Below, piece by piece: positions 5,406 through 56,000 of a stretch of DNA of 64,000 nucleotides. Each line of letters begins with the position of its first letter. Position 1 is the stretch's first letter. Below the pieces are notes generated by a model that made no database searches, was not told where the DNA came from, and worked only from the letters and a program-made list of their open reading frames with translations. This DNA comes from Liolophura sinensis (Eukaryota > Mollusca > Polyplacophora > Chitonida > Chitonidae), in assembly GCF_032854445.1 (NCBI RefSeq), contig NC_088297.1, forward strand, positions 25,971,915 to 26,035,914, written 5' to 3'. Position numbers and translations under genes: made by a program.

Positions 5406-6295
5406 GTTTAACTTAATACTAATTAGATTTTCCATCTGGTAGAGCTCTGAAATTCATGTTTACATGTAGAACTGCGTGTACCATTAGCACACATTAATAT
5501 TTTACTGGGTGTAACATCGGGAATGCGTGGGTTCAGTCCCAAGCTGGGGCATGCATGGCAATATGGGAAAGGTGGAAACTGAGTTACTTCATAGGTTGAT
5601 CATACACATGGTGAAGGAAGGTGTCCAGGTATGTGTACATGTCCAGGTAATAGCCCAGTGTCTGTGTGTGTACTGCATCTGGCCTAGTGTCTGTGTGTGT
5701 ACTGCATCTGGATGGGGTGTTTTCTACATGTACTTGGCATGGACTAATCCCGTTTTTATTTACGGTGGAACAGTACATACATGTACATTAGCTTTATGAC
5801 AGTATTTATAATAATAATAATTATGCATTTATTTGCATAAAGGCCTTAGGCCTGAATACAATACAGATTGCCAACAGCTTCGAGTCATTTGGGGATGCAG
5901 CATAATCATTTTGCTGTAAGCTCTATGCAGACTTGAAGTACTGTAGTCATTTCTTCAAAGTTTGCTGCATTTCAGAGCAACATTTATGATTAGAGACTCC
6001 ATTCATGTGTAATAAATGCATAGGTTTGTTATAATATTGAAGACAAATTATTCAATGACATTGAAGCATAAAACCTTTATACTTTTTCTCTATATTTCCC
6101 AAGTGTTTAAATTGTTGAGAGGTTATGAGAAAATGAAACTGGTGTTTGATCTGCTGTACATGTGAATCACATAAATGACACTACCAGTATCCACACTCTT
6201 TTGGGGTACTCTTTATTAAAGCAGTTGCTATGGTGATGTGACAGAAATAAAGAATGTAAACACCTAACTTACAAATAATTAATTATGTTTTGCAG

Positions 6296-25189: not shown

Positions 25190-28100
25190 CTGGGCTAATA
25201 TATGTACTTACACACAGACAGAGCCCAAAGTCAGGTCTAAGTATAGCTGATCTATGCACTTTCACACACACATACTCACACACATAGCCCAAAGTCAGGT
25301 CTACGTATAGGAAATATATGTACTTACACACATACATACTCACAGACAGAGCCCAAAGTGAGGTCTAAGTATAGCTGATATATGTACTTACACACATACA
25401 TACTCACAGACATAGCCCAAAGTCAGGTCTAAGTATAGCTGATATATGTACTTACACACATACATACACACACACACATAGCCCAAAGTCAGGTCTATGT
25501 ATAGCTAATATATGTACTTACACACACACATACTCACACACATAACCCAAAGTCAGGTCTAAGTGTAGCTGATATATGTACTTACACACACACATACTCA
25601 CACACATAGCCCAAAATCAGGCCTAAGTATAGCTGATATTTGTACTTACACACATACATACTCACACACATAGCCCAAAGTCAGGTCTAAGTATAATTTA
25701 TTTTTATTTATTTATTTATTTATTTGATTGGTGTTTTACGCCGTACTCAAGAGGGTGGAATCCGGGCACAGCCCGGGGGAAACCCATGGCCATCCGCAGG
25801 CTGCTGGCAGACCTTCCCACGTGCGGCCGGAGAGGAAGCCAGCATTAGCTAAACTTGAACCCACAGCGACAGCATTGGTGAGAGACTCCTGGGTCATTAC
25901 GCTGCGCTAGCGCGCTAACCAACTGAGCCACGGAGGCCCCAGGTCTAAGTATAGTTGATATATGTACTTACACACACACATACTCACACATATAACCCAA
26001 AGCCAGGTCCAAGTATAGTTGATATATGTACTTACACACATACATACACACACACATAGCCCAAAGTCAGATCTAAGTATAGTTGATATATGTACTTACA
26101 CACATACATACACACACACATAGCCCAAAGTCAGATCTAAGTATAGTTGATATATGTACTTACACACATACATACTCACACACATAGCCCAAAGTCAGGT
26201 CTAAGTATAGCTGATGTATGTACTTACACACACATACTCACACACATAGCCCAAAGTCAGGTCTAAGTATAGCTAATATATGTACTTACACACATACATA
26301 CTCACACACATAGCCCAAAGTCAGGTCTAAGTATAGCTAATATATGTACTTACACACATACATACTCACACACATAGCCCAAAGTCAGGTCTAAGTATAG
26401 CTGATGTATGTACTTACACACACATACTCACACACATAGCCCAAAGTCAGGTCTAAGTATAGCTAATATATGTACTTACACACATACATACTCACACACA
26501 TAGCCCAAAGTCAGGTCTAAGTATAGCTGATGTATGTACTTACACACACATACCCACACACATAGCCCAAAGTCAGGTCTAAGTATAGCTAATATATGTA
26601 CTTACACACATACATACTCACACACATAGCCCAAAGTCAGGTCTAAGTATAGCTGATTGTATGTACTTACACACACATACTCACACACATAGCCCAAAGT
26701 CAGGTCTAAGTATAGCTAATATATGTACTTACACACATACATACTCACACACATAGCCCCAAAGTCAGTTCTAAGTATAGCTGATGTATGTACTTACACA
26801 CACATACTCACACACATAGCCCAAAGTCAGGTCTAAGTATAGCTGATATATGTACTTACACACACATACTCACACACATAGCCCAAAGTCAGGTCTAAGT
26901 ATAGCTGATATATGTACTTACACACATACATACTCACACACATAGCCCAAAGTCAGGTCTAAGTATAGCTGATGTATGTACTTACACACACATACTCACA
27001 CACATAGCCCAAAGTCAGGTCTAAGTATAGCTGATATATGTACTTACACACATACATACTCACACACATAGCCCAAAGTCAGGTCTAAGTATAGCTGATA
27101 TATGTACTTACACACACATACTCACACACATAGCCCAAAGTCAGGTCTAAGTATAGCTGATATATGTACTTACACACATACATACTCACACACATAGCCC
27201 AAAGTCAGGTCTAAGTATAGCTGATGTATGTACTTACACACACATACTCACACACATAGCCCAAAGTCAGGTCTAAGTATAGCTAATATATGTACTTACA
27301 CACATACATACTCACACACATAGCCCAAAGTCAGGTCTAAGTATAGCTGATATATGTACTTACACACACATACTCACACACATAGCCCAAAGTCAGGTCT
27401 AAGTATAGCTAATATATGTACTTACACACATACGTACTCACACACATAACCCAAAGTCAGTTCTAAGTATAGCTGATGTATGTACTTACACACACATACT
27501 CACACACATAGCCCAAAGTCAGGTCTAAGTATAGCTAATATATGTACTTACACACATACATACTCACACACATAGCCCAAAGTCAGGTCTAAGTATGGCT
27601 AATATATGTACTTGCACACACACATACTCACACACATAGCCCAAAGTCAGGTCTAAGTATAGCTAATATATGTACTTACACACACATACTCACACACATA
27701 GCCCAAAGTCAGGTCTAAGTATAGCTAATATATGTACTTACACACATACATACTCACACACATAGCCCAAAGTCAGGTCTAAGTATGGCTAATATATGTA
27801 CTTGCACACACACATACTCACACACATAGCCCAAAGTGAGGTCTAAGTATAGCTAATATATGTACTTACACACATACATACTCACACACATAGCCCAAAG
27901 TCAGGTCTAAGTGTAGCTAATATTTGTACTTACACACATACATACTCACACATAGCCCAAAGTCAGGTCCAAGTATAGCGAATATTTGTACTTACACACA
28001 CATACTCACACACATAGCCCAAAGTCAGGTCTAAGTATAGCTGATATATGTACTTACACACACACATACCGGTACTCACAGACATAGCCCAAAGTCAGGT

Positions 28101-28225
28101 CTAAGTATAGCTGATATATGTACTTACACACACACATACTCACACACATAGCCCAAAGTCAGGTCTAAGTATTGCGAATGTATGTACTTACACACACACA
28201 CATACTCACACACATAGCCCACTAG
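25190..28225. repeat. 60-64-bp minisatellite, about 45 copies, interrupted by a SINE
   Basis: The unit is built from 'acacacatactcacacacat', 'agcccaaagtcaggtctaag' and 'tatagctgatatatgtactt'. Lengths alternate between about 60 and 64 bp depending on an extra 'cata'. The array is split by a SINE family 1 insertion at 25696-25940. It lies just upstream of the candidate early ADHFE1 exon. Confidence 0.95.
25696..25940 (-). mobile_element. SINE family 1, near full-length, inserted in a minisatellite
   Basis: The reverse-complement copy reads from its A-rich tail ('atttatttatttgattgg') to the head ('gctaaccaactgagccac', 'ggaggcccc'). The 13-bp target-site duplication 'aggtctaagtata' is at 25683-25695 and 25941-25953, both within satellite units. 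The insertion therefore postdates local amplification. Confidence 0.92.
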
Positions 28226-29010: not shown

Positions 29011-32000
29011 AGATACCGGCCCGGATAGCACAGTTGGTAGAGCGTCCCCTTCGGGACCGGTAGATCCAGGATCAATCCTTGATCGAGTCACACCTAAGAC
29101 TTTAAAAGAGGAAGTTGTAACTTCCTCGCTTGGCGTTCAGCATGAAGGGGAAGGTTGACCCGTATCAGTATAATGGCTCGGGCGGCTTAATTGCCTTCGG
29201 TAAGTCGTCTCAGTGAAGCAGCACTAAATCAAAGAGCGGTGGAAATCGGTCCTGCAACAAGGAGGCACATTACACGTACATGCACCCTAATGATTCCTTC
29301 GTCGTCATATGACTGAAAAATTGTTGAGTACGACGTTAAACCCCAAGCACTCACTCACTTACTTGTAGGAGATGGACTTGTGATGGCACAAACTAGCACC
29401 TTCAACAGTGATGACAGTGGGGTTACCAGCCCTGTACAAAGAGAAGCAAACCTTGCAATCCAGGATCCATAGAATCCTCTGTACTTACTGGAATAACAAC
29501 ACTGTGGTTAAGTGATTTCAAGAATAGTACATGTGATCATGATTAATGGCAGCGAGTGTAGTTATTCCAGTAGTCAGAGGGCAGTGATGTTCCATGAGTT
29601 ACAAGTCAGAGGGCAATGATGTTCCATGAGTTATAAGTCAGGGGGTACTGATGTTCCCTGAGTTACAAGTCAGAGGGCACTGATGTTCCATGAGTTACAA
29701 GTCAGGGGGTACTGATGTTCCCTGAGTTACAAGTCAGGGGGCACTGATGTTCCCTGAGTTACAAGTCAGAGAACACTGAAATTACAAGTCAGAGGGCACT
29801 GATGTTCCCTGAGTTACAAGTCAGAGGGCACTGATGTTCCATGAATTACAAGTCAGGGGGTACTGATGTTCCCTGAGTTACAAGTCAGAGGGCACTGATG
29901 TTCCCTGAGTTACAAGTCAGGGGGCACTGATGTTCCCTGAGTTACAAGTCAGAGGGCACTGATGTTCCATGAGTTACAAGTCAGGGGGCACTGATGTTCC
30001 CTGAGTTACAAGTCAGAGAACACTGAAATTACAAGTCAGAGGGCACTGATGTTCCCTGAGTTACAAGTCAGAGGGCACTGATATTCCATGAATTACAAGT
30101 CAGAGGGTACTGATGTTCCCTGAGTTACAAGTCAGAGAACACTGAAATTACAAGTCAGAGGGCACTGATGTTCCATGAGTTACAAGTCAGAGGGCACTGA
30201 TGTTCCCTGAGTTACAAGTCAGAGGGCACTGATGTTCCATGAGTTATAAGTCAGGGGGTACTGATGTTTCCTGAGTTACAAGTCAGAGGGCACTGATGTT
30301 CCATGAGTTACAAATCAGAGGGCACTGATGTCCCATGAGTTACTGAGTGACTGACCACACTTGTGGATAACTGATTGGCTAAGCTGTTTGCACTGTGAGT
30401 AATGACTGACCGCACATGTGGATAACCGAGTGGCTCAGCTGTTTCCACTGTGAGTAATGACTGACCACACATGTGGATAACCGAGTGGCTAAGCTGTTTA
30501 CACCATGAGTAATGACTGACCACACATGTGGATAACCGAGTGGCTCAGCTGTTTCCACTGTGAGTAATGACTGACCACACATGTGGATAACCGAGCGGCT
30601 CAGCTGTTTCCACTGTGAGTAATGACTGACCACACATGTGGATGACCGAGTGGCTCAGCTGTTTCCACTGTGAGTAATGACTGACCACACATGTGGATGA
30701 CTAAGCTGTTTCCACTGTGAGTAATGACTGACCACACATGTGGATAACCGAGTGGCTCAGCTGTTTACACCATGAGTAATGACTGACCACACATGTGGAT
30801 AACCGGGTGGCTCAGCTGTTTCCACTGTGAGTAATGACTGACCACACATGTGGATAACCGGGTGGCTCAGCTGTTTCCACTGTGAGTAATGACTGACCAC
30901 ACATGTGGATAACCGGGTAGCCAAGCTGTTTACACCATGAGTAATGACTGACCACACATGTGGATGACTAAGCTGTTTCCACTGTGAGTAATGACTGACC
31001 ACACATGTGGATGACTAAGCTGTTTCCACTGTGAGTAATGACTGACCACACATGTGGATGACTAAGCTGTTTCCACCATGAGTAATGACTGACCACACAT
31101 GTGGATGACTAAGCTGTTTCCACTGTGAGTAATGACTGACCACACATGTGGATGACTAAGCTGTTTCCACTGTGAGTAATGACTGACCACACATGTGGAT
31201 GACTAAGCTGTTTCCACTGTGAGTAATGACTGACCACACATGTGGATAACCGAGTGGCTCAGCTGTTTCCACTGTGAGTAATGACTGACCACACATGTGG
31301 ATGACCGAGTGGCTAAGCTGTTTACACCATGAGTATTGACTGACCGCACATGTGGATAACCGGGTGGCTCAGCTGTTTACACCATGAGTAATGACTGACC
31401 ACACATGTGGATAACCGAGTGGCTCAGCTGTTTCCACTGTGAGTAATGACTGACCACACATGTGGATAACCGAGTGGCTAAGCTGTTTACACCATGAGTA
31501 ATGACTGACCACACATGTGGATAACCGAGTGGCTCAGCTGTTTCCACTGTGAGTAATGACTGACCACACATGTGGATGACTAAGCTGTTTCCACTGTGAG
31601 TAATGACTGACCACACATGTGGATAACCGGGTGGCTCAGCTGTTTACACCATGAGTAATGACTGACCACACATGTGGATAACCGAGTGGCTCAGCTGTTT
31701 CCACTGTGAGTAATGACTGACCACACATGTGGATAACCGGGTGGCTCAGCTGTTTCCACCATGAGTAATGACTGACCACACATGTGGATGACTAAGCTGT
31801 TTCCACTGTGAGTAATGACTGACCACACATGTGGATGACTAAGCTGTTTCCACTGTGAGTAATGACTGACCGCACATGTGGATAACCGAGCGGCTCAGCT
31901 GTTTCCACTGTGAGTAATGACTGACCACACATGTGGATAACCGAGTGGCTCAGCTGTTTCCACTGTGAGTAATGACTGACCACACATGTGGATAACCGAG

Positions 32001-35000
32001 TGGCTAAGCTGTTTACACCATGAGTAATGACTGACCACACATGTGGATAACCGAGTGGCTCAGCTGTTTCCACTGTGAGTAATGACTGACCGCACATGTG
32101 GATAACCGAGCGGCTCAGCTGTTTCCACTGTGAGTAATGACTGACCACACATGTGGATAACCGAGTGGCTCAGCTGTTTCCACTGTGAGTAATGACTGAC
32201 CACACATGTGGATGACTAAGCTGTTTCCACTGTGAGTAATGACTGACCACACATGTGGATGACTAAGCTGTTTCCACTGTGAGTAATGACTGACCACACA
32301 TGTGGATGACTAAGCTGTTTACACCATGAGTAATGACTGACCACACATGTGGATAACCGAGCGGCTCAGCTGTTTCCACTGTGAGTAATGACTGACCACA
32401 CATGTGGATAACCGAGTGGCTCAGCTGTTTCCACTGTGAGTAATGACTGACCACACATGTGGATAACCGAGTGGCTAAGCTGTTTACACCATGAGTAATG
32501 ACTGACCACACATGTGGATAACCGAGTGGCTCAGCTGTTTCCACTGTGAGTAATGACTGACCGCACATGTGGATAACCGAGCGGCTCAGCTGTTTCCACT
32601 GTGAGTAATGACTGACCACACATGTGGATAACCGAGTGGCTCAGCTGTTTCCACTGTGAGTAATGACTGACCACACATGTGGATGACTAAGCTGTTTCCA
32701 CTGTGAGTAATGACTGACCACACATGTGGATGACTAAGCTGTTTCCACTGTGAGTAATGACTGACCACACATGTGGATGACTAAGCTGTTTCCACTGTGA
32801 GTAATGACTGACCACACATGTGGATAACCGAGTGGCTAAGCTGTTTACACCATGAGTAATGACTGACCACACATGTGGATAACCGAGTGGCTCAGCTGTT
32901 TCCACTGTGAGTAATGACTGACCACACATGTGGATAACCGAGTGGCTCAGCTGTTTCCACTGTGAGTAATGACTGACCACACATGTGGATAACCGAGTGG
33001 CTCAGCTGTTTCCACTGTGAGTAATGACTGACCACACATGTGGATAACCGAGTGGCTAAGCTGTTTACACCATGAGTAATGACTGACCACACATGTGGAT
33101 AACCGAGTGGCTCAGCTGTTTCCACTGTGAGTAATGACTGACCACACATGTGGATAACCGAGTGGCTCAGCTGTTTCCACTGTGAGTAATGACTGACCAC
33201 ACATGTGGATGACTAAGCTGTTTCCACTGTGAGTAATGACTGACCGCACATGTGGATAACCGAGCGGCTCAGCTGTTTCCACTGTGAGTAATGACTGACC
33301 ACACATGTGGATAACTGAGTGGCTCAGCTGTTTGCACTGTGAGTAATGACTGACCACACATGTGGATGACTAAGCTGTTTCCACTGTGAGTAATGACTGA
33401 CCACACATGTGGATGACCGGGTGGCTCAGCTGTTTACACTGTGAGTAATGACTGACCACACATGTGGATAACCGAGCGGCTCAGCTGTTTCCACTGTGAG
33501 TAATGACTGACCACACATGTGGATAACTGAGTGGCTCAGCTGTTTGCACCATGAGTAATGACTGACCACACGGGTGGTTGTTTACAACCTGCAGACAGTC
33601 ATGGGTGTTCCACTGAGCTCTGTATTTTTTCCATCCATCATAATACTGGCCACCATTGTATTAAATATTCTTGAGTACATTGTAAAACGCCAATCAAATA
33701 GATAAATGAAGGAAAGGTATTACCATTTTTGTGTCATACATATTGAGACGTAATTATTTTACAGATGCTGGGTTTGGGACGACAAGCCAGACCAGACAGA
33801 ATGTGCAACAGACGGAGTATGCCTTTGAGGTGAGTGACAGTTGGGTTGTATTTGGAACATTTTGTCTGAGGTATAAATGAACTGTCTAAACTGTGACGAC
33901 TGAGTCGAAAAGATGTATACCTATGTAGAAAGAATGAATGAGTGGATCAGAGAAAAAAAATTTAACAAATGGGTCATTTTTTTATAAAAGCAAATAAACT
34001 AGTGTAGGTGTGTGGTGTCCCTTATGAATTCAACTGTGTTTTGTTTCAGATGGCATGTTCTAACATCAGGTATGGTGAGGGAGTCACACAGGAGGTTGGC
34101 ATGGTGAGTGGCAGAAGTGCGTCTTGGTTTTTAGCTTTTTAACAGTATAATTCCATCCCAGCCATATGATACTCAGTCAGATAGTGCATTTAAGTGTTCT
34201 CCTCCACAGTGCCGTTAGGAGTAAATCATGTGAGGCACTCAGTGAGACAGTGCATTAAGTTTTCCCCTCCACAATGCTGTTAGGAGTAAATTGTGTGAGG
34301 TACTCAGTCAGACAGTGCATTAAGTTTTCCCCTCCACAATGCTGTTAGGAGTAAATTGTGTGAGGGACTCAGTCAGACAGTGCATTAAGTTTTGCCCTCT
34401 ACAATGCTGTTAGGAGAAAATTGTGTGAGGGACTTAGTCAGACAGTGCGTTAAGTTTTCCCCTCCACAATGCTGCTAGGAGTAAATGGTGTGAGGGACTC
34501 AGTGAGACAGTGTGTTAAGTTTTGCCCTCTACATTGCTGTTAGGAGTAAATTATGTGGGGGACTCAGTCAGACAGTGCATTAAGTTTTGCCCTCTACAAT
34601 GCTGCTAGAAGTAAATTGTGTGAGGGACTCAGTCAGACAGTGCGCTAAGTGTTCCCCTCCACAGTGCTGTTAGGAGTAAATGGTGTGAGGAACTCGGTCA
34701 GACAGTGCGTTAAGTGTTCCCCTCCACAGTGCTGTTAGGAGTAAATGGTGTGAGGGACTCAGTCAGACAATGTGTTAAGTTTTCCCCTCCACAATGCTGT
34801 TAGGAGTAAATTGTGTGAGGGACTTAGTCAGACAGTGCGTTAAGTTTTCCCCTCCACAATGCTGCTAGGAGTAAATTGTGTGAGGGACTCAGTCAGACGG
34901 TGTGTTAAGTTTCCCCTCCACAATGCTGTTAGGAGTAAATGGTGTGAGGGACTCAGACAGTGCGTTAAGTTTTCCCCTCCACAATGCTCTAAGGAGTAAA

Positions 35001-38000
35001 TTGTGTGAGGGACTCAGTCAGACAGTGTGTTAAGTGTTCCCCTCCACAGTGCTGTTAGGAGTAAATGGTGTGAGGGACTCGATCAGACAGTGTGTTAAGT
35101 GTTCCCCTCCACAGTGCTTTTAGGAGTAAATGGTGTGAGGGACTCAGTCAGATAGTGCGTTAAGTTTTCCCCTCCACAATGCTGTAAGGAGTAAATTGTT
35201 TGAGGGACTCAGTCAGACAGTGTGTTAAGTGTTCCCCTCCACAGTGCTGTTTGGAGTAAATGGTGTGAGGGACTCGATCAGACAGTGTGTTTAGTTTTGC
35301 CCTCCACAATGCTGTTAGGAGTAAATTATGTGAGGGACTCAGTCAGACAGTGTGTTAAGTTTTCCCCTCCACAATGCTGTTAGGAGTAAATGGTGTGAGG
35401 GACTCAGTCAGACAGTGTGTTAAGTTTTCCCCTCCACAATGCTGTTAGGAGTAAATGGTGTGAGGGACTCAGTCAGACAGTGTGTTAAGTTTTCCCCTCC
35501 ACAATGCTGTTAGGAGTAAATGGTGTGAGGGACTCAGTGAGACAGTGTGTTAAGTTTTGCCCTCTACAATGCTGCTAGAAGTAAATTGTGTGAGGGACTC
35601 AGTCAGACAGTGCGTTAAGTGTTCCCCTCCACAGTGCTGTTAAGAGTAAGTGGTGTGAGGGACTTAGTCAGACAGTGCGTTAAGTGTTCCCCTCCACAGT
35701 GCTGTTAGGAGTAAATTATGTGGGGGACTCAGTCAGACAATGTGTTAAGTTTTCCCCTCCACAATGCTGTTACGAGTAAATTGTGTGAGGGACTTAGTCA
35801 GACAGTGCGTTAAGTTTTCCCTTCCACAATGCTACTAGGAGTAAATTGTGTGAGGGACTTAGTCAGACAGTGCGTTAAGTTTTCCCCTCCACAATGCTAC
35901 TAGGAGTAAATTGTGTGAGGGACTCAGACAGAGCATTAAATGTTCCCCTCCACAGTACAGTTAGGAGTAAATCATGTGAGGAACTCGGTCAGACAGTGCA
36001 TTTAAGTGTTCCCCTCCACAATGCTGTTAGGAGTAAATGGTGTGAGGGACTCAGTCAGATAGTGCATTAAGTGTTCCCCTCCACAATGCTGTTAGGAGTA
36101 AATGGTGTGAGGGACTCAGTCAGATAGTGCGTTAAGTTTTCCCCTGCGCAATGCTGTTAGGAGTAAATTATGTGAGGGACTCAGTCAGACAGTGTGTTAA
36201 GTTTTCCCCTCCACTATGCTGTTAGGAGTAAATGGTGTGAGGGACTCAGTCAGACAGTGTGTTAAGTTTTCCCCTCCACAATGCTGTTAGGAGTAAATTG
36301 TGTGAGGGACTCAGTCAGACAGTGTGTTAAGTTTTCCTCTCCACAATGCTGTTAGGAGTAAATGGTGTGAGGGACTCAGTGAGACAGTGTGTTAAGTTTT
36401 GCCCTCTACATTGCTGTTAGGAGTAAATTATGTGGGGGACTCAGTCAGACAGTGCATTAAGTTTTCCCCTCTACAATGCTGTTAGGAGAAAATTGTGAGG
36501 GACTTAGTCAGACAGTGCGTTAAGTTTTGCCCTCTACAATGCTGTTAGGAGAAAATTGTGTGAGGGACTTAGTCAGACAGTGCGTTAAGTGTTCCCCTCC
36601 ACAGTGCTGTTAGGAGTAAATGGTGTGAGGGACTCAGTCAGATAGTGCATTAAGTTTTCCCCTCCACAATCTGTTAGGAGTAAATTATGTGAGGGACTCA
36701 GTGAGACAGTGTGTTAAGTGTTCCCCTCCACAATGCTGTTCGGAGTAAATTATGTGGGGGACTCAGTCAGACAGTGCATTAAGTTTTCCCCTCCACAATG
36801 CTGTTAGGAGTAAATTGTGTGAGGGACTTAGTCAGACAGTGCGTTAAGTTTTCCCCTCCACAATGCTGCTAGGAGTAAATGGTGTGAGGGACTCAGTGAG
36901 ACAGTGTGTCAAGTTTTGCCCTCTACATTGCTGTTAGGAGTAAATTATGTGGAGAACTCAGTCAGACAGTGCATTAAGTTTTGCCCTCTACAATGCTGTT
37001 AGGAGAAAATTGTGTGAGGGACTTAGTCAGACAGTGCGTTAAGTGTTCCCCTCCACAGTGCTGTTAGGAGTAAATGGTGTGAGGGACTCAGTCAGATAGT
37101 GCATTAAGTGTTCCCCTCCACAGTGCTGTTAGGAGTAAATGGTGTGAGGGACTCAGTCAGATAGTGCGTTAAGTTTTCCCCTCCACAATGCTGTAAGGAG
37201 TAAATTTTGTGAGGGACTCAGTCAGACAGTGTGTTAAGTGTTCCCCTCCACAGTGCTGTTAGGAGTAAATGGTGTGAGGGACTCGATCAGACAGTGTGTT
37301 AAGTGTTCCCCTCCACAGTGCTGTTAGGAGTAAATGGTGTGAGGGACTTAGTCAGATAGTGCGTTAAGTGTTCCCCTCCACAATGCTGTTAGGAGTAAAT
37401 TATGTGAGGGACTCAGTCAGACAGTGTGTTAAGTTTTCCCCTCCACAATGCTGTTAGGAGTAAATTTTGTGAGGGACTTAGTCAGACAGTGTGTTAAGTT
37501 TTGCCCTCTACATTGCTGTTAGGAGTAAATTATGTGGGGGACTCAGTCAGACAGTGCATTAAGTTTTGCCCTCTACAATGCTGTTAGGAGAAAATTGTGT
37601 GAGGGACTCAGTCAGACAGTGCGTTAAGTGTTCCCCTCCACAGTGCTGTTAGGAGTAAATTATGTGGAGGACTCAGTCAGACAGTGCATTAAGTTTTGCC
37701 CTCTACAATGCTGTTAGGAGAAAATTGTGTGAGGGACTTAGTCAGACAGTGCGTTAAGTGTTCCCCTCCACAATGCTGTTAGGAGTAAATGGTGTGAGGG
37801 ACTCAGTCAGATAGTGCATTAAGTTTTCCCCTCCACAATCTGTTAGGAGTAAATTATGTGAGGGACTCAGTCAGACAGTGTGTTAAGTGTTCCCCTCCAC
37901 AATGCTGTTAGGAGTAAATTATGTGGGGGACTCAGTCAGACAGTGCATTAAGTTTTCCCCTCCACAATGCTGTTAGGAGTAAATTGTGTGAGGGACTTAG

Positions 38001-41000
38001 TCAGACAGTGCGTTAAGTTTTCCCCTCCACAATGCTGCTAGGAGTAAATGGTGTGAGGGACTCAGTGAGACAGTGTGTCAAGTTTTGCCCTCTACATTGC
38101 TGTTAGGAGTAAATTATGTGGAGGACTCAGTCAGACAGTGCATTAAGTTTTGCCCTCTACAATGCTGTTAGGAGAAAATTGTGTGAGGGACTTAGTCAGA
38201 CAGTGTGTTAAGTTTTCCCCTCCACAATGCTGTTAGGAGTAAATGGTGTGAGGGACTCAGTGAGACAGTGTGTTAAGTTTTGCCCTCTACATTGCTGTTA
38301 AGAGTAAGTGGTGTGAGGGACTCGGTCAGACAGTGCGTTAAGTGTTCCCCTCCACAGTGCTGTTAGGAGTAAATTGTGTGAGGACTCAGTCAGACAGTGT
38401 GTTAAGTTTCCCCTCCACAATGCTGTTAGGAGTAAATTGTGTGAGGGACTCAGACAGTGCGTTAAGTTTTCCCCTCCACATTGCTGTTTGGAGTAAATTA
38501 TGTGGGGGACTCAGTCAGACAGAGCATTAAATGTTCCCCTCCACAGTACAGTTAGGAGTAAAACATGTGAGGAACTCGGTCAGACAGTGCATTTAAGTGT
38601 TCCCCTCCACAATGCTGTTCGGAGTAAATTGTTTGAGGGACTCAGTCAGACAGTGCGTTAAGTTTCCCCTCCACAGTGCTGTTAGGAGTAAATTTTGTGA
38701 AGGACTCAGTCAGACAGTGTGTTAAGTTTTCCCCTCCACAATGCTGTTATGAGTAAATGGTGTGAGGGACTCGGTCAGACAGTGTGTTAAGTTTTGCCCT
38801 CCACAATGCTGTTAGGAGTAAATTGTGTGAGGGACTCAGTCAGACAGTGTGTTAAGTTTTGCCCTCCACAATGCTGTAAGGAGTAAATTTTGTGAGGGAC
38901 TCAGTCAGACAGTGTGTTAAGTGTTCCCCTCCACAGTGCTGTTAGGAGTAAATGGTGTGAGGGACTCGATCAGACAGTGTGTTAAGTGTTCCCCTCCACA
39001 ATGCTGTTAGGAGTAAATGGTGTGAGGGACTTAGTCAGACAGTGTGTTAAGTTTTCCCCTCCACAATGCTGTTAGGAGTAAATTGTGTGAGGGACTCAGT
39101 CAGACAGTGCGTTAAGTTTTCCCCTCCACAATGCTGTAAGGAGTAAATTGTTTGAGGGACTCAGTCAGACAGTGTGTTAAGTGTTCCCCTCCACAGTGCT
39201 GTTAGGAGTAAATGGTGTGAGGGACTCGATCAGACAGTGTGTTTAGTTTTGCTCTCCACAATGCTGTTAGGAGTAAATTATGTGAGGGACTCAGTCAGAC
39301 AGTGTGTTAAGTTTTACCCTCCACAATGCTGTTAGGAGTAAATGGTGTGAGGGACTCAGTCAGACAGTGTGTTAAGTGTTCCCCTCCACAATGCTGTTAG
39401 GAGTAAATGGTGTGAGGGACTCAGTCAGACAGTGTGTTAAGTTTTCCCCTCCACAATGCTGTTAGGAGTAAATGGTGTGAGGGACTCAGTGAGACAGTGT
39501 GTCAAGTTTTGCCCTCTACATTGCTGTTAGGAGTAAATTATGTGGGGGACTCAGTCAGACAGTGCGTTAAGTTTTGCCCTCTACAATGCTGCTAGAAGTA
39601 AATTGTGTGAGGGACTTAGTCAGACAGTGCGTTAAGTGTTCCCCTCCACAGTGCTGTTAAGAGTAAGTGGTGTGAGGGACTCGATCAGACAGTGCGCTAA
39701 GTGTTCCCCTCCACAGTGCTGTTAGGAGTAAATTATGTGGGGGATTCAGTCAGAGAATGTGTTAAGTTTTCCCCTCCACAATGCTGTTACGAGTAAATTT
39801 TGTGAGGGACTTAGTCAGACAGTGCGTTAAGTTTTCCCCTCCACAATGCTACTAGGAGTAAATTGTGTGAGGGACTCAGTCAGACAGTGTTTTAAGTTTC
39901 CCCTCCACAATGCTGTTAGGAGTAAATTGTGTGAGGGACTCAGTCAGACAGTGTGTTAAGTATTCCCCTCCACGGTGCTGTTAGGAGTAAATTGTGTGAG
40001 GGACTCAGTCAGACAGTGCGTTAAGTTTCCCCTCCACAGTGCTGTTAGGAGTAAATTTTGTGAGGGACTCAGTCAGACAGTGTGTTAAGTTTTCCCCTCC
40101 ACAATGCTGTTATGAGTAAATGGTGTGAGGGACTCGGTCAGACAGTGTGTTAAGTTTTCCCCTCCACAATGCTGTTAGGAGTAAATTGTGTGAGTGACTC
40201 AGTCAGACAGTGTGTTAAGTTTTGCCCTCCACAATGCTGTAAGGAGTAAATTGTGTGAGGGACTCAGTCAGACAGTGTGTTAAGTGTTCCCCTCCACAGT
40301 GCTGTTAGGAGTAAATTGTGTGAGGGACTCGATCAGAGAGTGTGTTAAGTGTTCCCCTCCACAATGCTGTTTGGAGTAAATTATGTGGGGGACTCAGTCA
40401 GACAGAGCATTTAAGTGTTCCCCTCCACAATGCTGTTAGGAGTAAATTGTGTGAGGGACTCGATCAGAGAGTGTGTTAAGTGTTCCCCTCCACAATGCTG
40501 TTAGGAGTAAATTGTTTGAGGGACTCAGTCAGACAGTGCATTTAAGTGTTCCCCTCCACAATGCTGTTAGGAGTAAATTGTGTGAGGGACTCAGTCAGAC
40601 AGTGTGTTAAGTTTTCCCCTCCACAATGCTGTTAGGAGTAAATGGTGTGAGGGACTCAGTCAGACAGTGTGTTAAGTTTTCCCCTCCACAGTGCTGTTAG
40701 GAGTAAATGGTGTGAGGGACTCGGTCAGACAGTGTGTTAAGTTTTCCCCTCCACAATGCTGTTAGGAGTAAATTGTGTGAGGGACTCAGTCAGACAGTGT
40801 GTTAAGTTTTCCCCTCCACAATGCTGTTAGGATTAAATGGTGTGAGGGACTCAGTCAGACAGTGTGTTAAGTTTTGCCCTCCACAATGCTGTTAGGAGTA
40901 AATGGTGTGAGGGACTCAGTCAGACAGTGCGTTTAGTTTTCCCCACAATGCTGGTAGTTAGCGAAGCTATGCTGATCTACATGTGGTTTATCACATTTGT

Positions 41001-44000
41001 TTTTGGTGCCTATTCTAGGTCCATTTATGAAAAGTCCACAAAATTGACAACTTCTGTTACAGTGTATGTTACATGACATGTTAATGACTACAAATTTATA
41101 CTGGTCTGGTTTCAGGACTTCAAGAACCTTGGTCTGAAGAATGTGTGTGTAATTACAGACAAGAACCTGAGGAGCCATACATCAGTTCAGGTGTCACTAC
41201 AGTCCCTGGATCAAAGTGGTGTCAAATTCCAGGTGTTTGACAATGTACGCGTGGAACCTACCGATACGAGGTACATGATACTTGCTGGGCAAGCCATTGC
41301 TCCTAGCGGGCCAAATAGACATTGTAATGGATGACATTCCGTGTGTCAGACGATGTAGATGTTGAACCTACAGATATGAGGTACCTGATACTTGCTGGAC
41401 AAGCCAGTGCTCCTAGTGGGCCAAATAGACATTGTAATGGATGACATTCCGTGTGTCAGACGATGTAGATGTTGAACCTACACATATGAGGTACCTGATA
41501 CTTGCTGGACAAGCCAGTGCTCCTAGTGGGCCAAATAGACATTGTAATGGATGACATTCCGTGTGTCAGACGATGTAGATGTTGAACCTACAGGTATGAG
41601 GTACATGATACTTGCTGGACAAGCCAGTGCTCCTAGTGGGCCAAATAGACATTGTAATGGATGACATTTCGTGTGTCAGACGATGTAGATGTTGAACCTA
41701 CAGATATGAGCTACCTGATACTTGCTGGGCAAGCCAGTGCTCCTAGTGGGCCAAATAGACATTGTAATGGATGACATTCCATGTGTCAGACGATGTAGAT
41801 GTTGAACCTACAGATATGAGGTACATGATACTTGCTGGACAAGCCAGTGCTCCTAGTGGGCCAAATAGACATTGTAATGGATGACATTTCGTGTGTCAGA
41901 TGATGTAGATGTTGAACCTACAGATATGAGGTACATGATACTTGCTGGACAAGCCAGTGCTCCTAGTGGGCCAAATAGACATTGTAATGGATGACATTCC
42001 GTGTGTCAGACGATGTAGATGTTGAACCTACAGATATGAGGTACATGATACTTGCTGGACAAGCCAGTGCTCCTAGTGGGTCAAATAGACATTGTAATGG
42101 ATGACATTCCGTGTGTCAGACGATGTAGATGTTGAACCTACAGATATGAGGTACATGATACTTGGTGGGCAAGCCAGTGCTCCTAGTGGGCCAAATAGAC
42201 ATTGTAATGGATGACATTCCGTGTGTCAGACGATGTAGATGTTGAACCTACAGATATGAGGTACATGATACTTGGTGGGCAAGCCAGTGCTCCTAGTGGG
42301 CCAAATAGACATTGTAATGGATGACATTTCGTGTGTCAGATGATGTAGATGTTGAACCTACAGATATGAGGTACATGATACTTGCTGGACAAGCCAGTGC
42401 TCCTAGTGGGCCAAATAGACATTGTAATGGATGACATTCCGTGTGTCAGACGATGTAGATGTTGAACCTACAGGTATGAGGTACATGATACTTGCTGGAC
42501 AAGCCAGTGCTCCTAGTGGGCCAAATAGACATTGTAATGGATGACATTCCATGTGTCAGACGATGTAGATGTTGAACCTACAGGTATGAGGTACATGATA
42601 CTTGCTGGACAAGCCAGTGCTCCTAGTGGGCCAAATAGACATTGTAATGGATGACATTCCGTGTGTCAGACGATGTAGATGTTGAACCTACAGATATGAG
42701 GTACATGATACTTGCTGGACAAGCCAGTGCTCCTAGTGGGCCAAATAGACATTGTAATGGATGACATTCCGTGTGTCAGACGATGTAGATGTTGAACCTA
42801 CAGATATGAGCTACCTGATACTTGCTGGGCAAGCCAGTGCTCCTAGTGGGCCAAATAGACATTGTAATGGATGACATTCCGTGTGTCAGACGATGTAGAT
42901 GTTGAACCTACAGATATGAGGTACATGATACTTGGTGGGCAAGCCAGTGCTCCTAGTGGGCCAAATAGACATTGTAATGGATGACATTTCGTGTGTCAGA
43001 CGATGTAGATGTTGAACCTACAGATATGAGGTACATGATACTTGCTGGACAAGCCAGTGCTCCTAGTGGGCCAAATAGACATTGTAATGGATGACATTCC
43101 GTGTGTCAGACGATGTAGATGTTGAACCTACAGATATGAGGTACATGATACTTGCTGGACAAGCCAGTGCTCCTAGTGGGTCAAATAGACATTGTAATGG
43201 ATGACATTCCATGTGTCAGACGATGTAGATGTTGAACCTACAGGTATGAGGTACATGATACTTGCTGGACAAGCCAGTGCTCCTAGTGGGCCAAATAGAC
43301 ATTGTAATGGATGACATTCCATGTGTCAGACGATGTAGATGTTGAACCTACAGATATGAGGTACCTGATACTTGCTGGACAAGCCAGTGCTCCTAGTGGG
43401 CCAAATAGACATTGTAATGGATGACATTCCATGTGTCAGACGATGTAGATGTTGAACCTACAGATATGAGGTACCTGATACTTGCTGGACAAGCCAGTGC
43501 TCCTAGTGGGCCAAATAGACATTGTAATGGATGACATTCCGTGTGTCAGACGATGTAGATGTTGAACCTACAGATATGATGTACCTGATACTTGCTGGGC
43601 AAGCCAGTGCTCCTAGTGGGCCAAATAGACATTGTAATGGATGACATTCCGTGTGTCAGACGATGTAGATGTTGAACCTACAGATATGAGGTACATGATA
43701 CTTGCTGGGCAAGCCAGTGCTCCTAGTGGGTCAAATAGACATTGTAATGGATGACATTCCATGTGTCAGACGATGTAGATGTTGAACCTACAGGTATGAG
43801 GTACATGATACTTGCTGGGCAAGCCAGTGCTCCTAGTGGGTCAAATAGACATTGTAATGGATGACATTCCGTGTGTCAGACGATGTAGATGTTGAACCTA
43901 CAGGTATGAGGTACCTGATACTTGCTGGACAAGCCAGTGCTCCTAGTGGGCCAAATAGACATTGTAATGGATGACATTCCGTGTGTCAGACGATGTAGAT

Positions 44001-47000
44001 GTTGAACCTACAGATATGAGGTACCTGATACTTGCTGGACAAGCCAGTGCTCCTAGTGGGCCAAATAGACATTGTAATGGATGACATTCCGTGTGTCAGA
44101 CGATGTAGATGTTGAACCTACAGATATGAGGTACATGATACTTGCTGGACAAGCCAGTGCTCCTAGTGGGTCAAATAGACATTGTAATGGATGACATTCC
44201 ATGTGTCAGACGATGTAGATGTTGAACCTACAGATATGAGGGACATGATACTTGCTGGGCAAGCCAGTGCTCCTAGTGGGCCAAATAGACATTGTAATGG
44301 ATGACATTCCGTGTGTCAGACGATGTAGATGTTGAACCTACAGATATGAGGTACCTGATACTTGCTGGACAAGCCAGTGCTCCTAGTGGGCCAAATAGAC
44401 ATTGTAATGGATGACATTCCGTGTGTCAGACGATGTAGATGTTGAACCTACAGATATGAGGTACATGATACTTGCTGGACAAGCCAGTGCTCCTAGTGGG
44501 TCAAATAGACATTGTAATGGATGACATTCCATGTGTCAGACGATGTAGATGTTGAACCTACAGGTATGAGGTACCTGATACTTGCTGGGCAAGCCAGTGC
44601 TCCTAGTGGGCCAAATAGACATTGTAATGGATGACATTCTGTGTGTCAGACGATGTAGATGTTGAACCTACAGATATGAGGTACATGATACTTGCTGGGC
44701 AAGCCAGTGCTCCTAGTGGGCCAAATAGACATTGTAATGGATGACATTCCATGTGTCAGACGATGTAGATGTTGAACCTACAGATATGAGGTACATGATA
44801 CTTGCTGGGCAAGCCAGTGCTCCTAGTGGGCCAAATAGACATTGTAATGGATGACATTCCGTGTGTCAGACGATGTAGATGTTGAACCTACAGATATGAG
44901 GTACATGATACTTGCTGGACAAGCCAGTGCTCCTAGTGGGCCAAATAGACATTGTAATGGATGACATTCCGTGTGTCAGACGATGTAGATGTTGAACCTA
45001 CAGATATGAGGTACATGATACTTGCTGGACAAGCCAGTGCTCCTAGTGGGTCAAATAGACATTGTAATGGATGACATTCCATGTGTCAGACGATGTAGAT
45101 GTTGAACCTACAGGTATGAGGTACCTGATACTTGCTGGGCAAGCCAGTGCTCCTAGTGGGCCAAATAGACATTGTAATGGATGACATTCTGTGTGTCAGA
45201 CGATGTAGATGTTGAACCTACAGATATGAGGTACCTGATACTTGCTGGGCAAGCCAGTGCTCCTAGTGGGCCAAATAGACATTGTAATGGATGACATTTC
45301 GTGTGTCAGACGATGTAGATGTTGAACCTACAGATATGAGGTACCTGATACTTGCTGGACAAGCCAGTGCTCCTAGTGGGCCAAATAGACATTGTAATGG
45401 ATGACATTCCGTGTGTCAGATGTAGATGTTGAACCTACAGATATGAGGTACATGATACTTGCTGGACAAGCCAGTGCTCCTAGTGGGCCAAATAGACATT
45501 GTAATGGATGACATTCTGTGTGTCAGACGATGTAGATGTTGAACCTACAGATATGAGGTACATGATACTTGCTGGACAAGCCAGTGCTCCTAGTGGGCCA
45601 AATAGACATTGTAATGGATGACATTCAGTGTGTCAGACGATGTAGATGTTGAACCTACAGGTATGAGGTACATGATACTTGCTGGACAAGCCAGTGCTCC
45701 TAGTGGGCCAAATAGACATTGTAATGGATGACATTCCGTGTGTCAGACGATGTAGATGTTGAACCTACAGATATGAGGTACATGGACTATTCATTTTGGA
45801 CAAAATAGTGCTCTTAGCAGGGCAGATACATTGCTTTTGTTTGTTCAGAAGAAAGATGAGAAAAATGGTCAGAGAAATTTTTTCCTCGGGACAAAATTTA
45901 GGGAAATTAAAAGGAAACAAAAACAAAATGTAGAGTTGATAATGAGATTATGTCCTGCATTGGCCATTTGAGCTAAGATTACTTACTGCAGTTGCAGTTT
46001 GAGCTGAGATTACATACTGCAGTGGCAGTTTGAGCTGAGATTACATACTGCAGTGGCAGTTTGAGCTGAGATCACATACTGCAGTTGCAGTTTGAGCTGA
46101 GATTACATACTGCAGTTGCAGTTTGAGCTGAGATTACATACTGCAGTTGCAGTTTGAGCTGAGATTACTTACTGCAGTTGCAGTTTGAGCTGAGATTACA
46201 TACTGCAGTTGCAGTTTGAGCTGAGATTACATACTGCAGTTGCAGTTTGAGCTGAAATTACATACTGCAGTGGCAGTTTGAGCTGAGATTACATACTGCA
46301 TAATGGCAGTTTGAGCAAAGATTACATATTGCAGTGGCAGTTTGAGCTGAAATTACATACTGCAGTGGCAGTTTGAGCTGAGATTACATACTCCATAATG
46401 GCAGTTTGAGCAAAGATTACATATTGCATTGGCCATTTGAGCTGAGATTACATACTGCAGTGGCAGTTTGAGCTGAGATTTCACCCTGCATTGGCCATTT
46501 GAGCAGAGATTACATACTGCATTGGCCATTTGAGCTGAGATTACATACTGCAGTGGCAGTTTGAGCTGAGAATACATACTGCAGTGGCCATTTGAGCTGA
46601 GATTACATACTGCAGTGTCAGTTTGAGCTGAGAATACATACTGCAGTGGCAATTTGAGCTGAGATTACATACTGCAGTGGCAGTTTAAGCTGAGAATACA
46701 TACTGCAGTGGCAGTTTGAGCTGAGAATACATACTGCAGTGGCCGTTTGAGCTGAGATTACATACTGCAGTGGCCGTTTCAGCCGAGATTACAACTGCAT
46801 AATGTCAGTTTGAGCTAAGATTACATACTGCATTGGCCATTTGAGCTGAGATTACATAATGCAGTGTCAGTTTGAGCTGGGATTACATGCTGCAGTGGCA
46901 ATTTGAGCTGAGATTACATACTGCAGTGGCAGTTTGAGTGACCACCACATGAGCATTCATTCGCTAGGTGACACTTTTGCGATTGACCAACATAATGCTG

Positions 47001-50000
47001 AGGATGTGAGAGATAACAGATTTGATGTTCAATCCAGCCAGGCGGCATTCGTGTCGTAGTTGTTACTGTGCTGGTTCAGCGTAATGACCCATGAGCCTCT
47101 CACCAATACGGTCACTGTGAGTTTGTCCAGCTTGTGCTCACTTCCTCTCCGCTTATAAGTGGGAAGGTCTGTCAGCAGCCTGCAGATGGTCAGGGTTTTC
47201 CCTGGGATGTGCCTGGTTTTCTCTAACTAAAATCATGGCTCCCGTCATATAAGTGAAATATTCTTGAATACAGCATAAAACGCCAATCAAGTAAATAAAT
47301 CAACCTCCTCTTTTACCATTTTGACCCCTTCTTTTTGCCATTTTGACCCCTTCTTTTTGCCATTTTTTGATCCCTTCTTTTTGCAATTTTCATCTCTTCT
47401 TTTTATGACCTTTACTTCTCACCACTTTAATCAGTTTCAAGGAAGCCATATCATTTGCGATGTCCTCTGACTTTGATGGCTTTCTGGCAGTGGGTGGGGG
47501 CTCTGTGATTGACACCTGTAAGGCAGCCAATCTGTATGCTTCAAACCCTTCAGCTGACTTCCTGGATTATGTCAATGCTCCTGTGGGGAAAGGAAAACCT
47601 GTCACTCATCAAGTCAAACCTCTAATTGCAGGTAACTTTAAACATTGACCTTATGTGTCGTTTGAGTTCACTTTATATTTATTAACTTATGAAATGTAAG
47701 ACTCAGAGTACAAATTGCGACTGCTAATAGTCATTTTTTTGCCTGCGGTTTAACTTCTCCTTGAACAAAAATGTACTCACGCATATGTTATGGGTTCTGC
47801 CTATTACCACAACGCCATGCAGACACTACACATCTCATCCTGTTTGTATGAAGATGCAACAATTTTAACTCCACTTTAAAACAAAGAAGGACATTTTATG
47901 AACGTGCTCTTTTTCAAAATTTCTGTGAACAGCAGCAGATTTAAGCTTACTCTATTGCCTTATTTAGTCATGCTTTCGTCTAGAATTTACTTTATTATTT
48001 TGTTTGTCTTTCAGTGGCAACCACAGCAGGGACTGGCAGTGAAAACCACAGGGGTAGCCATCTTTGATCATGAACCACTTAAAGCTAAAACAGGTACATG
48101 TAGAAGTTGTTGCCAGAGCTACATGGCCAGAGCTACACGGTTAGAGCTACATGGCCAGTGCTAGACGGCTAGAGCTACACGTCCAGATCTACACATCCAG
48201 AGCTACACAACTAAAGCTACACGTTTAGAGCTACATGTTTAGAACTAAATGGCCAGTGCTACACAGCTAGAGCAACACGGCCAGAGCTACACGGCCAGAG
48301 CTACACGGCCAGAGCTACACGGCCAGATTTACATGGCCAGTGCTACACGGCTAGAGCTACATGGCTAATGCTACACGACCAGAGCTACACGACCAGAGCT
48401 ATACGGCCAGTGCTACACGGCCAGAGCTACATGGCCAGTGCTACACAGCCAGAGCTACACAGCCAGAGCTACATGGCCAGTGCTACACGGCCAGTGCTAC
48501 ATGGCCAGTGCTTCATGGCCAGAGCTACACGGCCATTGCTACCCGGCCAGAGTTACACAGCCAGAGCTACACGGGTTAGTGCTACACGGCCAGAGCTACA
48601 CGACCAGAGCTACACAGCCAGAACTACACGGCCAGTGTTACAGGGCTAGAGCTACACGGCTAGAGCCACACGGCCAGAGCTACATGGCCAGAGCTATACG
48701 GCCAGAGCTAAATGGTCATATTTACATGTCCAGTGCTACACGGCTAGAGCTACATGGCCAGAGCTATACGGCCAGAGCTAAACGGTCATATTTACATGTC
48801 CAGTGCTACACGGCTAGAGCTACATGGCCAGAGCTATACGGCCAGAGCTAAACGGTCATATTTACATGTCCAGTGCTACACGGCTAGAGCTACATGGCCA
48901 GAGCTATACGGCCAGAGCTAAACGGTCATATTTACATGTCCAGTGCTACACGGCTAGAGCTACATGGCCAGAGCTATACGGCCAGAGCTAAACGGTCATA
49001 TTTACATGTCCAGTGCTACACGGCTAGAGCCACACGGCCAGAGCTACATGGCCAGAGCTATACGGCCAGAGCTAAACGGTCATATTTACATGTCCAGTGC
49101 TACACGGCTAGAGCTACATGGCTAATGCTACACGACCAGAGGTATACAGCCAGTGCTACACGGCCAGAGCTACACGGCTACTGGGACACATATATAGATA
49201 GTACACCTCGTTTCTCACACATAAATGCCCCCAAGGCCATGGGTTTCCCCTGGACTTTATCCAGTTTCTTCCCACCATAATGCTGGGCATCGTCATACAA
49301 GTGAAATATTCTGAGTATGGCATGAAAGTCCAATTAAATAAATAAATAAGTGAATAAAAAGCATAACTTTTTATTTTTGTTATGCTGCACTACTAAGGTA
49401 TAGTAAGCAAAATCATGCACATTTAAATAAATATATAAATAAATATAGGAATAAATCAATGTCCCATATCTATTAATTGTATTTTATTTAGGTTATTACT
49501 GTGTTATGCCACACCAACGAATGTTCCACACCAAAGAATTTCCTACACCAAAGAATGCTCCACATCAAAGAATATCCCACACCAAAGAACATTCCACATC
49601 AAAGAATATTCCACACCAATGAATGTTCCACACCAAAGAATTTCCTACACCAACGAATGTTCCACACCAAAGAATTTCCTACACCAAAGAATGTTCCACA
49701 CCAAAGAATTCCCCACACCAAAGAATATTCCACAAATCTCCTGACTTGCACCTGAACCAATGGGAGTTGGATTCTAACATGCAAGCTCAGTAATCAGAGG
49801 TTCATTTTATTCTCTTTTGAGATAATCCAGTCAACAGCTTGATGAGAGCTTGACTTCAAGACACAGACAGATATTGTTAGAAGAAATTTAAAAGGCATAT
49901 TGTTAGAAGAACTTAAAGGCAATGAACGGTGGACAGTGCTTTCTCATGTAGTCTTACACGACGTTCATTTGAGACTTCTTCCCAAAATGTTGTCACACTT

Positions 50001-53000: not shown

Positions 53001-56000
53001 TTTAGGAGTTATCATTTGTTTCCCGTTTAAGAGGGCTGGATAAAGTACTCGTGAGTGCTTAGTTATCATACTCTGACACTGTGTCTTCAGCATGGCATTC
53101 CAGTGAGACAGCATGTGAACAATATACGCTGTCTCAGTGTAAAATAACAAGCGGACCATGGAAGAACATACATAAAATGGCGTATTAAAAATATGATGGA
53201 GAAGAGTTATAAAACTAGACTTAGTTTAGGATAGAATTCAGCTGATATGTGTATGTATGATGTCTGAATTCTCTGTTCCAGGGCTGTTTATGGAGCAGAT
53301 GACTTAGAGGCAAAAGCTGCCATGCACCAGGCAAGCTGCTTTGCTGGCATTGGCTTTGGGAATGCCGGGGTGCACTTGTGGTATGTTCATGATATATTCA
53401 TCCCATATGTGATATGTTCATGATGCATTCATCCCATTTGTGGTATGTTCATGGTACATTCATCCCATTTGTGGTATGTTCATGGTACATTCATCCCTTT
53501 TGTGGTATGTTCATGGTACATTCATCCCATTTGTGGTGTGTTCATGGTACATTCATCCCATTTGTGGTATGTTCATGGTACATTCATCCCATTTGTGGTA
53601 TGTTCATGATACATTCATCCCATTTGTGGTAAATTCACAGTAAATTCATCCCATTTGTGGTAAATTCACAGTAAATTCATCCCATTTGTGGTAAGTTCAT
53701 GATACATTTATCCCATTTGTGGTATGTTCATGGTACATTCATCCCATTTGTGGTATGCTCATGGTACATTCATCCCATTTGTGGTATGTTCATGATACAT
53801 TCATCCCATTTGTGGTATGTTCATGATACATTCATCCCATTTATGGTATGTTCATGATACATTCATCCCATTTATGGTATGTTCATGATACATTCATCCC
53901 ATTTGTGGTAAATTCACAGTAAATTCATCCCATTTGTGGTAAGTTCATGATACATTTATCCCATTTGTGGTAAGTTCACAAAGTTCAAATTCATTGCATT
54001 TGTGATGCATTCATGGTACCTACAACATACTGTTGTGGTAGTTTAGGGCAGTTTAAATCCACCTATCATGGTCTGATGGTTTGTGCGTGCGAACAATGGG
54101 CTGACGGTGAGCAAATCCGCCGTCATCATCGGCGTATCATCTGGGTATCATGTGTCGATGATGGTGGGACCATGGTGTGACAATTAGCGTAAGATTTTAT
54201 GATATTACCCGGTCATGTTGCTGTCATGGAATGAGTTATCTTGTATGGTGTGATTCTGTTGAAGTCATGGAATGAGTTACCCTGTCTGGTGTGATTCTGT
54301 TGTAGTTATGGAATGAGTTATCTTGTATGGTGTGATTCTGTTGAAGTCATGGAATGAGTTATCTTGTATGGTGTGATTCTGTTGAAGTCATGGAATGAGT
54401 TATCCTGTCTGGTGAGATTCTGTTGAAGTCCTGGAATGAGTTATCTTGTTTGGTATGATTCTGTTGAAGTCATGGAATGAATTACCCTGTCTGGTGTGAT
54501 TCTGTTGAAGTCATGGAATGAGCTATCCTGTATGGTTTGATTCTGTTGAAGTCATGGAATGAGTTATCTTGGATGGTGTGATTCTGTTGAAGTCATGGAA
54601 TGAGTTACCCTGTCTGGTGTGATTCTGTTGAAGTCCTGGAATGAGTTACCCTGTCTGGTGTGATTCTGTTGAAGTCATGGAATGAGTTATCTTGTTTGGT
54701 ATGATTCTGTTGAAGTCTTGGAATAAGTTACCCTGTATGGTGTGATTCTGTTGAAGTCATGGAATGAGTTATCCTGTATGGTGTGATTCTGTTGAAGTAA
54801 TGGAATGAGTTATCCTGTCTGGTGAGATTCTGTTGAAGTCCTGGAATGAGTTATCCTGTATGGTTTGATTCTGTTTTAGTCATGGAATGAGTTATCCTGT
54901 CTGGTGAGATTCTGTTGAAGTCCTGGAATGAGTTATCTTGTTTGGTATGATTCTGTTGAAGTCATGGAATGAGCTATCCTGTATGGTTTGATTCTGTTGA
55001 AGTCATGGAATGAGTTATCTTGGATGGTGTGATTCTGTTGAAGTCATGGAATGAGTTACCCTGTCTGGTGTGATTCTGTTGAAGTCATGGAATGATTATC
55101 TTATATGGTTTGATTCTGTTGAAGACATGGAATGAGTTACCCTGTCTGGTGTGATTCTGTTGCAGTCATGGAATGAGTTACCCAATCTCGGGCCTGTTGA
55201 AGTGGCTTGGGAAGACCTACACATCTGAGGGTTACCCCAACGATCACCCTATAGTGGTGGGTTTTTGGTCTAATGCTCCAAAGCGAAAAAAGTAAATTGT
55301 TAAATTTTTATTGAAACCTATTTCTGAGTTCTTAATAACTTAAATTATGTTCTTATTATAATGCGCTCTCTGATGGGGCAGTAATCAATATGTTAGTGCA
55401 CATATATGTGTGTTTCCATCATCCCACTTCTGACACCATAATTACTTATGTGTATGGATATACATATATAGTGATCAATGTTACAGTGTCCCTGTCCCAC
55501 TTCTGACACCATATTTTGCGTTTGTACTTGGATGTGATCAGTGTTCTAGTGTTCCTATCACACCTATGTTCACAGCCCCATGGTCTGTCTGTGGTGATTT
55601 CTGCCCCTGCTGTGTTTGAGTATACTGCCCCTGCTTGCCCAGCTCGCCACTTGGAAGCTGCAGAATTACTAGGTATTGGCACTCAAATACAAGTACTTGA
55701 AACTTTTATGAAAACTAGCTTATTAAGTGATAAACTAGTTTTCATAAAAGTTTCAAGGAAAAGGAACGCTAAAAATAAAGGAAGCATTGGTAGAAAAGAC
55801 GGTTAAAAATTGAAAATGCTTTGACTAGATGCAGTCAAGGGTTTGAATTCTGATATGGGTTTTACACGCCATGTTGATAATGCATGTTGTCAATGATGTA
55901 AAATTCATTTTGGTTTATACCTAAAGTAGTAAAGTTAATGTCAGATTCATATTATAGGCACACATTACATGATTTTAGTTCACAAGATGGTTTAATGCAT

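Follow-up and report, generated by a model that had tools for sequence, protein, structure and literature searches.

A probable mirage-type minisatellite across an ADHFE1 exon–intron junction, and similar arrays at other splice junctions, in the chiton Liolophura sinensis

A stretch of 64,000 nucleotides from the chiton Liolophura sinensis (assembly GCF_032854445.1, contig NC_088297.1, positions 25,971,915 to 26,035,914 of the forward strand; hereafter the window, whose own numbering is used below) contains a gene with a long tandem array of a 110-bp unit, in which the end of an exon, its splice donor and the start of the following intron are repeated together. We take the gene to be ADHFE1, because it matches the Pfam family Fe-ADH and resembles the human protein. 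The array is best explained, with a probability of about 0.75, as an intronic minisatellite of the type called mirages in amphioxus, which was born of a tolerated tandem duplication across the splice junction, with the first donor being used and the remaining copies being left as intron.

Tandem Repeats Finder (TRF) delimited 41.2 copies of the unit at 41254-45784 with 97% matches. Cutting the array at a conserved 8-mer gave 42 copies, the first of which is the real 3′ end of the exon while the other 41 are extra, and the distance from copy to copy is exactly 110 bases in 40 of the 41 steps and 107 in the remaining one. The array is in register with the true 3′ end of the ADHFE1 exon at 41116-41270 and with its donor, and occupies about three quarters of the 6.2-kb intron. 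Both the TRF result and the 8-mer register bear out the initial annotation, made from the sequence letters, which had described about 41 units of 110 bp composed of exon end, donor and intron start; its division of the unit into 40 exon and 70 intron bases holds approximately, the exact split being 38–42 and 68–72 bases, depending on the chosen start of the exon part. The same annotation had placed the array beside ADHFE1, whereas it sits within the gene, in the intron that separates the exons at 41116-41270 and 47435-47631. The features of this part of the window are as follows.

41116..41270, + strand: ADHFE1 exon (labelled B), set by frame and boundaries; its last ~42 bases are the exon part of array copy 1
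41229..41338, + strand: copy 1, with the real exon end, the real donor (GT at 41271) and the first intron bases
41339..45735, + strand: copies 2-41 of the unit, which joins an exon end, a donor and an intron start in 110 bp
45736..45845, + strand: copy 42, the right edge of the array, with intact exon part and decayed intron part
47435..47631, + strand: next ADHFE1 exon (labelled C), in phase with the exon at 41116-41270; Pfam Fe-ADH, E 2.4e-11

A search of the whole genome with the unit (609.46 Mb in 632 contigs, skipping simple repeats and very common words) gave 41 matches at a single candidate place, all of them inside this array. Dispersed satellite DNA was rejected on this ground, within the scope of that search, and the array is a locus-private intronic minisatellite, for which the earlier label "satellite" is misleading; this genome holds many other junction arrays besides it.

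The coding origin of the exon part of the unit is sound. An ungapped alignment of the last 38 exon bases with the unit gave 29 identities, while 20,000 shuffled units gave a mean of 9.8 and a maximum of 22, and no unrelated 38-mer on the window's + strand exceeded 23. When translated in the frame of the exon, the unit yields 12 residues that are comparable by eye to the exon's own 12. The homology claimed in the initial annotation has thus passed a proper alignment and lies far above the shuffles, but drift is evident in the exon part. Against the array consensus, copy 1 has 11 differences in its 42 exon bases and only three in its 68 intron bases (Fisher P 0.002), and the 39 inner copies differ from one another at about 3% of positions in the exon part and about 2% in the intron part. 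A homogenized interior is therefore set against two diverged edges, namely the exon part of copy 1 and the intron part of copy 42, the latter still aligning with a score of 47 (300 shuffles: mean 21, maximum 42). Simple copying of the present exon does not fit this pattern, because the exon and intron parts would then be expected to differ alike, whereas unequal exchange does fit, because blocks of variants recur in non-adjacent copies, such as copies 30-31 and 35-36. These comparisons suggest an old array that has been homogenized repeatedly and whose sequence has probably also overwritten the start of the intron in copy 1, as far as the splice site.

The history of the locus may accordingly be pictured in a few steps. 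A tandem duplication would once have spanned the exon-donor junction of ADHFE1, and the duplicate would have fallen into the intron and been tolerated there, because the original exon stayed joined to the first donor. Unequal exchange or conversion would then have expanded and homogenized the array to its roughly 41 extra copies, as the near-identity of the copies and the recurrent variant blocks suggest. In copy 1, homogenization appears to extend as far as the splice site and to spare the coding part, where replacements would most simply have been removed by selection, since they alter the protein. The transcript is most likely spliced from 41271 to 47435, and the array is most likely tolerated rather than functional.

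Splice signals are retained in most of the copies. The GT is kept in 38 of the 41 extra copies and lost in three; the exon's own nine-base donor, GAGGTACAT, occurs in 26 of them (27 of 42 with the real donor included), the variant GAGGTACCT in 11 and GATGTACCT in one. The earlier statement that most copies keep a plausible donor is upheld by the 37 extra copies that carry one of the two donors it named, and the acceptor-like AG that it had placed about 31 bases upstream of the donor is present in 40 of the 41, the exception being copy 39, which is short by three bases. With these signals, the copies might act as a bank of cryptic 31-base exons or alternative donors that reduce or tune the output of ADHFE1, nonsense-mediated decay being one possible route, and competition is conceivable since the real donor is itself weak, standing at the 19th percentile among 119 putative chiton donors. 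However, the common variant stands only at the 7th percentile, and the AGs of the 40 copies having one are weak to middling, at the 12th to 37th percentile among 130 putative chiton acceptors; all these percentiles are rough, as the reference sites were placed by script, by consensus, around 148 sampled myosin and kinesin matches. Translation of copy 2, the one copy translated, revealed that splicing in its 31 bases or using its donor brings an early stop, so that only the use of the first donor would keep the frame. The 31-base pseudo-exon proposed in the initial annotation is thus formally possible by the strength of its sites, but its inclusion at copy 2 would end the reading frame early. 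The loss of GT in three copies and the report that amphioxus mirages do not disturb regular splicing (PMC3087553, excerpt) also speak against a cryptic-exon bank, which we judge improbable; pseudo-exon use of the copies is possible but unsupported. A coding repeat that keeps the reading frame was rejected for this array, as the unit is 110 bp long and stops follow.

ADHFE1 itself harbors two further arrays of the same kind, which speak for the tolerated-duplication account.

53282..53380, + strand: ADHFE1 exon (labelled G), whose last bases and donor start the second array
53376..53978, + strand: second array across a junction, on the donor side, 31 bp x 19.5 (TRF)
54216..55180, + strand: third array across a junction, on the acceptor side, 41 bp x 23.6, running into the exon beginning at 55166 (TRF)

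A survey of conserved exons revealed that the architecture recurs at many other junctions of this genome. The exploratory half comprised 17 regions (126,357 bp) with 60 Myosin_head matches, and the confirmatory half 32 regions (127,732 bp) with 93 Kinesin matches; for the confirmatory half, the counting rule was fixed before the regions were fetched. The Pfam searches scored the best candidates only, 65 out of 213 in the case of myosin and 122 out of 207 in that of kinesin. They listed 76 myosin and 118 kinesin matches, of which the sample took in 60 and 93, picked by exon density before any arrays were viewed; calls of junction-spanning arrays were made by eye and not blind. Arrays longer than 100 bp cover 16% of the myosin regions, and arrays cover 13% of the kinesin regions. 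A junction-spanning array was found at eight of 60 myosin exons (six donor, two acceptor) and at six of 92 kinesin exons (five donor, one acceptor), one kinesin match (L031 3809-3931) having been excluded from the original 93 because it lies inside an array. Pooled, this gives 14 of 152 sampled conserved exons (9%, 95% interval 6–15%), or 14 of 302 boundaries after overlapping matches were merged into 151 intervals. Two of the kinesin cases are less clean, namely L021, where the exon must be read beyond the Pfam match, and L048, whose exon part is short; the array of L037 has 2.4 copies. Three clear cases were left uncounted because the exon is outside the Pfam list (L011, L019 with its array at 4591-5634, and L051), as were L018 and L045, where the homology is doubtful. 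The counts suggest that amplification of splice junctions is common in this mollusc genome. In region L031, an exon end of about 54 bases and its donor are repeated as a 73-bp array at 2188-4260, and one copy within it is the excluded Pfam Kinesin match (E 4.5e-6).

Across 20 junction arrays (the 14 counted, three clear but uncounted and three in ADHFE1), the exon side aligns over 7–111 bases with 76–100% identity, and the 110-bp ADHFE1 array has the most drifted exon side. The unit length is a multiple of three in three of the 20 (P 0.10). Donor arrays outnumber acceptor arrays by 11 to 3 among the counted cases (P 0.057) and by 15 to 5 over all 20 (P 0.04). Acceptor copies lie ahead of the real acceptor and can capture splicing, while donor copies fall behind the exon, so the excess of donor arrays fits tolerance.

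The survey was also compared with a null model in which the unit of each array was placed randomly in non-coding DNA and was freely allowed to span junctions. In the myosin half, eight arrays were seen against 1.5 expected (P 9e-5), or 2.0 expected when the longest period was taken (P 6e-4); in the kinesin half, six were seen against 2.3 (P 0.02), or 3.6 with the longest period (P 0.13); pooled, 14 were seen against 3.8 (P 4e-5; 0.002 with the longest period). From these observed and expected counts, much of what is seen needs only a very active minisatellite process and tolerance, while the moderate excess may mean a bias toward junctions. On one alternative reading, splice junctions would be mutational hot spots at which tandem duplications are preferentially born in this lineage, by routes such as breaks linked to transcription or short stretches of homology shared by real and cryptic splice sites. 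The pooled excess over a model with free junction placement speaks for hot spots, but the enrichment is weaker in the confirmatory kinesin half, which alone gives the P of 0.02 or 0.13 above, than in the exploratory myosin half, the calls were not blind, and the placement of arrays may track other local features. We regard hot spots as a tentative alternative, clearly less probable than the tolerated-duplication account.

Several observations weigh against the tolerated-duplication account in its present form. The excess itself is one of them, as junction arrays outnumber random placement even with full tolerance, and the account may thus miss a junction bias. The sharp step in identity at the splice site rests on the one 110-bp array, and the other junction arrays mostly differ little between exon and intron side, some of them in the reversed direction. 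In addition, ADHFE1 contains two apparent one-base frame breaks noted by eye, one within the exon at 48015-48093, whose two ends lie in different frames, and one at the boundary leading into the exon at 55576 (region 55256-55576), for which no phase-fitting donor was found. These represent either an assembly error or gene decay in this individual, and they make it uncertain whether the exon is under selection there.

A role of intronic arrays in general in binding U1 small nuclear ribonucleoprotein (snRNP), by which long introns would be protected from early polyadenylation, was also considered. The donor-side junction arrays do hold many sense-strand donor copies, and a sense-strand bias would be expected elsewhere too, because arrays kept as donor-like binding sites would favor that strand. 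However, in the 60 non-junction arrays (of 80 arrays), donor-like sites scoring ≥4 numbered 17 on the sense and 14 on the antisense strand (Wilcoxon P 0.21), and a general U1-binding role was rejected for want of this bias; we consider it very unlikely. Slighter still is the chance that the array was invented or much lengthened by the assembler. The coverage of the assembly is about 14x, but the HiFi reads average 8,347 bp and exceed the 4.5-kb array, the array copies differ by point changes, and junction arrays of the same design occur elsewhere, many of them below 1 kb. The assembly, with 632 scaffolds and 609,495,693 bp (PMC11068029, excerpt, also the source of the read length and coverage), was published as Liolophura japonica, a species name since corrected to Liolophura sinensis (PMC12441733).

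Other repeats were noted in passing. A 14-bp array of 76 copies at 48112-49178 begins 18 bases past the ADHFE1 donor at 48094; its unit is slightly junction-like, and it could be a much decayed junction array. The window is also rich in unrelated minisatellites, with 65 TRF rows, many of them overlapping, such as those at 34171-40944 (104 copies of 65 bp), 30348-33571 (61 copies of 55 bp) and 25209-28221 (47 copies of 64 bp). Elsewhere in the assembly, COX1 occurs seven times on contig C99, at intervals of about 15.5 kb, with a further copy on C632; this has the look of a residual mitochondrial concatemer. The gene order around COX1, read by eye, is nad3-nad2-cox1-cox2-atp6, an order found in chitons and other molluscs. 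The mitochondrial genes pointed to a chiton and not to amphioxus, a source that the mirage literature had suggested; searches for the GFP family and for RAG1 gave no match, though their controls gave none either.

The closest known system is that of the amphioxus mirages, described in the excerpts cited here as minisatellite-like tandem duplications across exon–intron boundaries, on the donor or acceptor side, with units of 10–160 bp, AG/GT in many copies, a homogenized interior and divergent edges; they were found in Adh3, the globins BflGb6 and BflGb9 and troponin C, with similar repeats in PGBD5 (PMC3087553, PMC3902484). The chiton unit likewise spans an exon–intron boundary and contains coding bases and a splice site, the arrays lie on both sides (two donor and one acceptor in ADHFE1, 15 and 5 overall), and the 110-bp array is homogenized inside (about 2–3% difference) and divergent at its edges. 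Unlike BflGb6, where three and six copies are given (PMC3087553, excerpt), the chiton array has 41 extra copies, and junction arrays lie at about 9% of the sampled conserved exons. The host is a mollusc, whereas mirages were reported from cephalochordates, which is a difference in the range of occurrence and not in architecture. Regular splicing, suggested by reverse-transcription PCR, and somatic length instability at Adh3, as cited in the globin paper (PMC3087553, excerpt), are amphioxus reports, while the chiton array is known from the sequence of one assembly.

More distant parallels exist, each likewise cited from an excerpt. Human genes in segmental duplications share minisatellites at exon–intron boundaries with the chiton, but the human internal tandem repeats average 30 bp x 4, and those at boundaries are associated with changed transcripts and new introns (PMC2812944), whereas the chiton repeats presumably stay intronic. 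In potato RdRp, a tandem duplication over an intron–exon boundary also copies splice signals, but creates a new intron (PMC4974935), while the chiton case enlarges an existing one. The Caenorhabditis elegans CeRep25B is likewise an intronic minisatellite linked with splicing, though there one family is over-represented near many alternative splicing regions (PMC4039745), while each chiton array is made from its own junction.

As far as searched, the mirage-type array is new for Mollusca. Mirage-like arrays in molluscs were absent among the matches listed in the open-licence literature, judged by title and start of the abstract, which leaves their absence unproven; no word starting with "intron" was found in the excerpt of the chiton genome paper (PMC11068029), and a paper comparing chiton genomes (PMC12005716) had neither "tandem repeat" nor "minisatellite" nor "satellite" in its main text.

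The finding extends a phenomenon reported from amphioxus to a distant phylum, with a first rough frequency. For annotators, it is a warning that decayed exon copies within arrays can match protein profiles, as with the Kinesin match in L031. Arrays of graded age allow tests of intron birth, of the choice between near-identical competing donors and of selection against conversion into exons. A bolder and doubtful, though not fanciful, view is that chiton splice junctions are preferred starting points of tandem amplification, affecting about 5% of the sampled conserved boundaries (14 of 302). The process would then have originated separately from that of amphioxus, or be far more widespread in animals than is known, and the constant supply of spare donors, acceptors and exon fragments could feed the birth of introns and exons.

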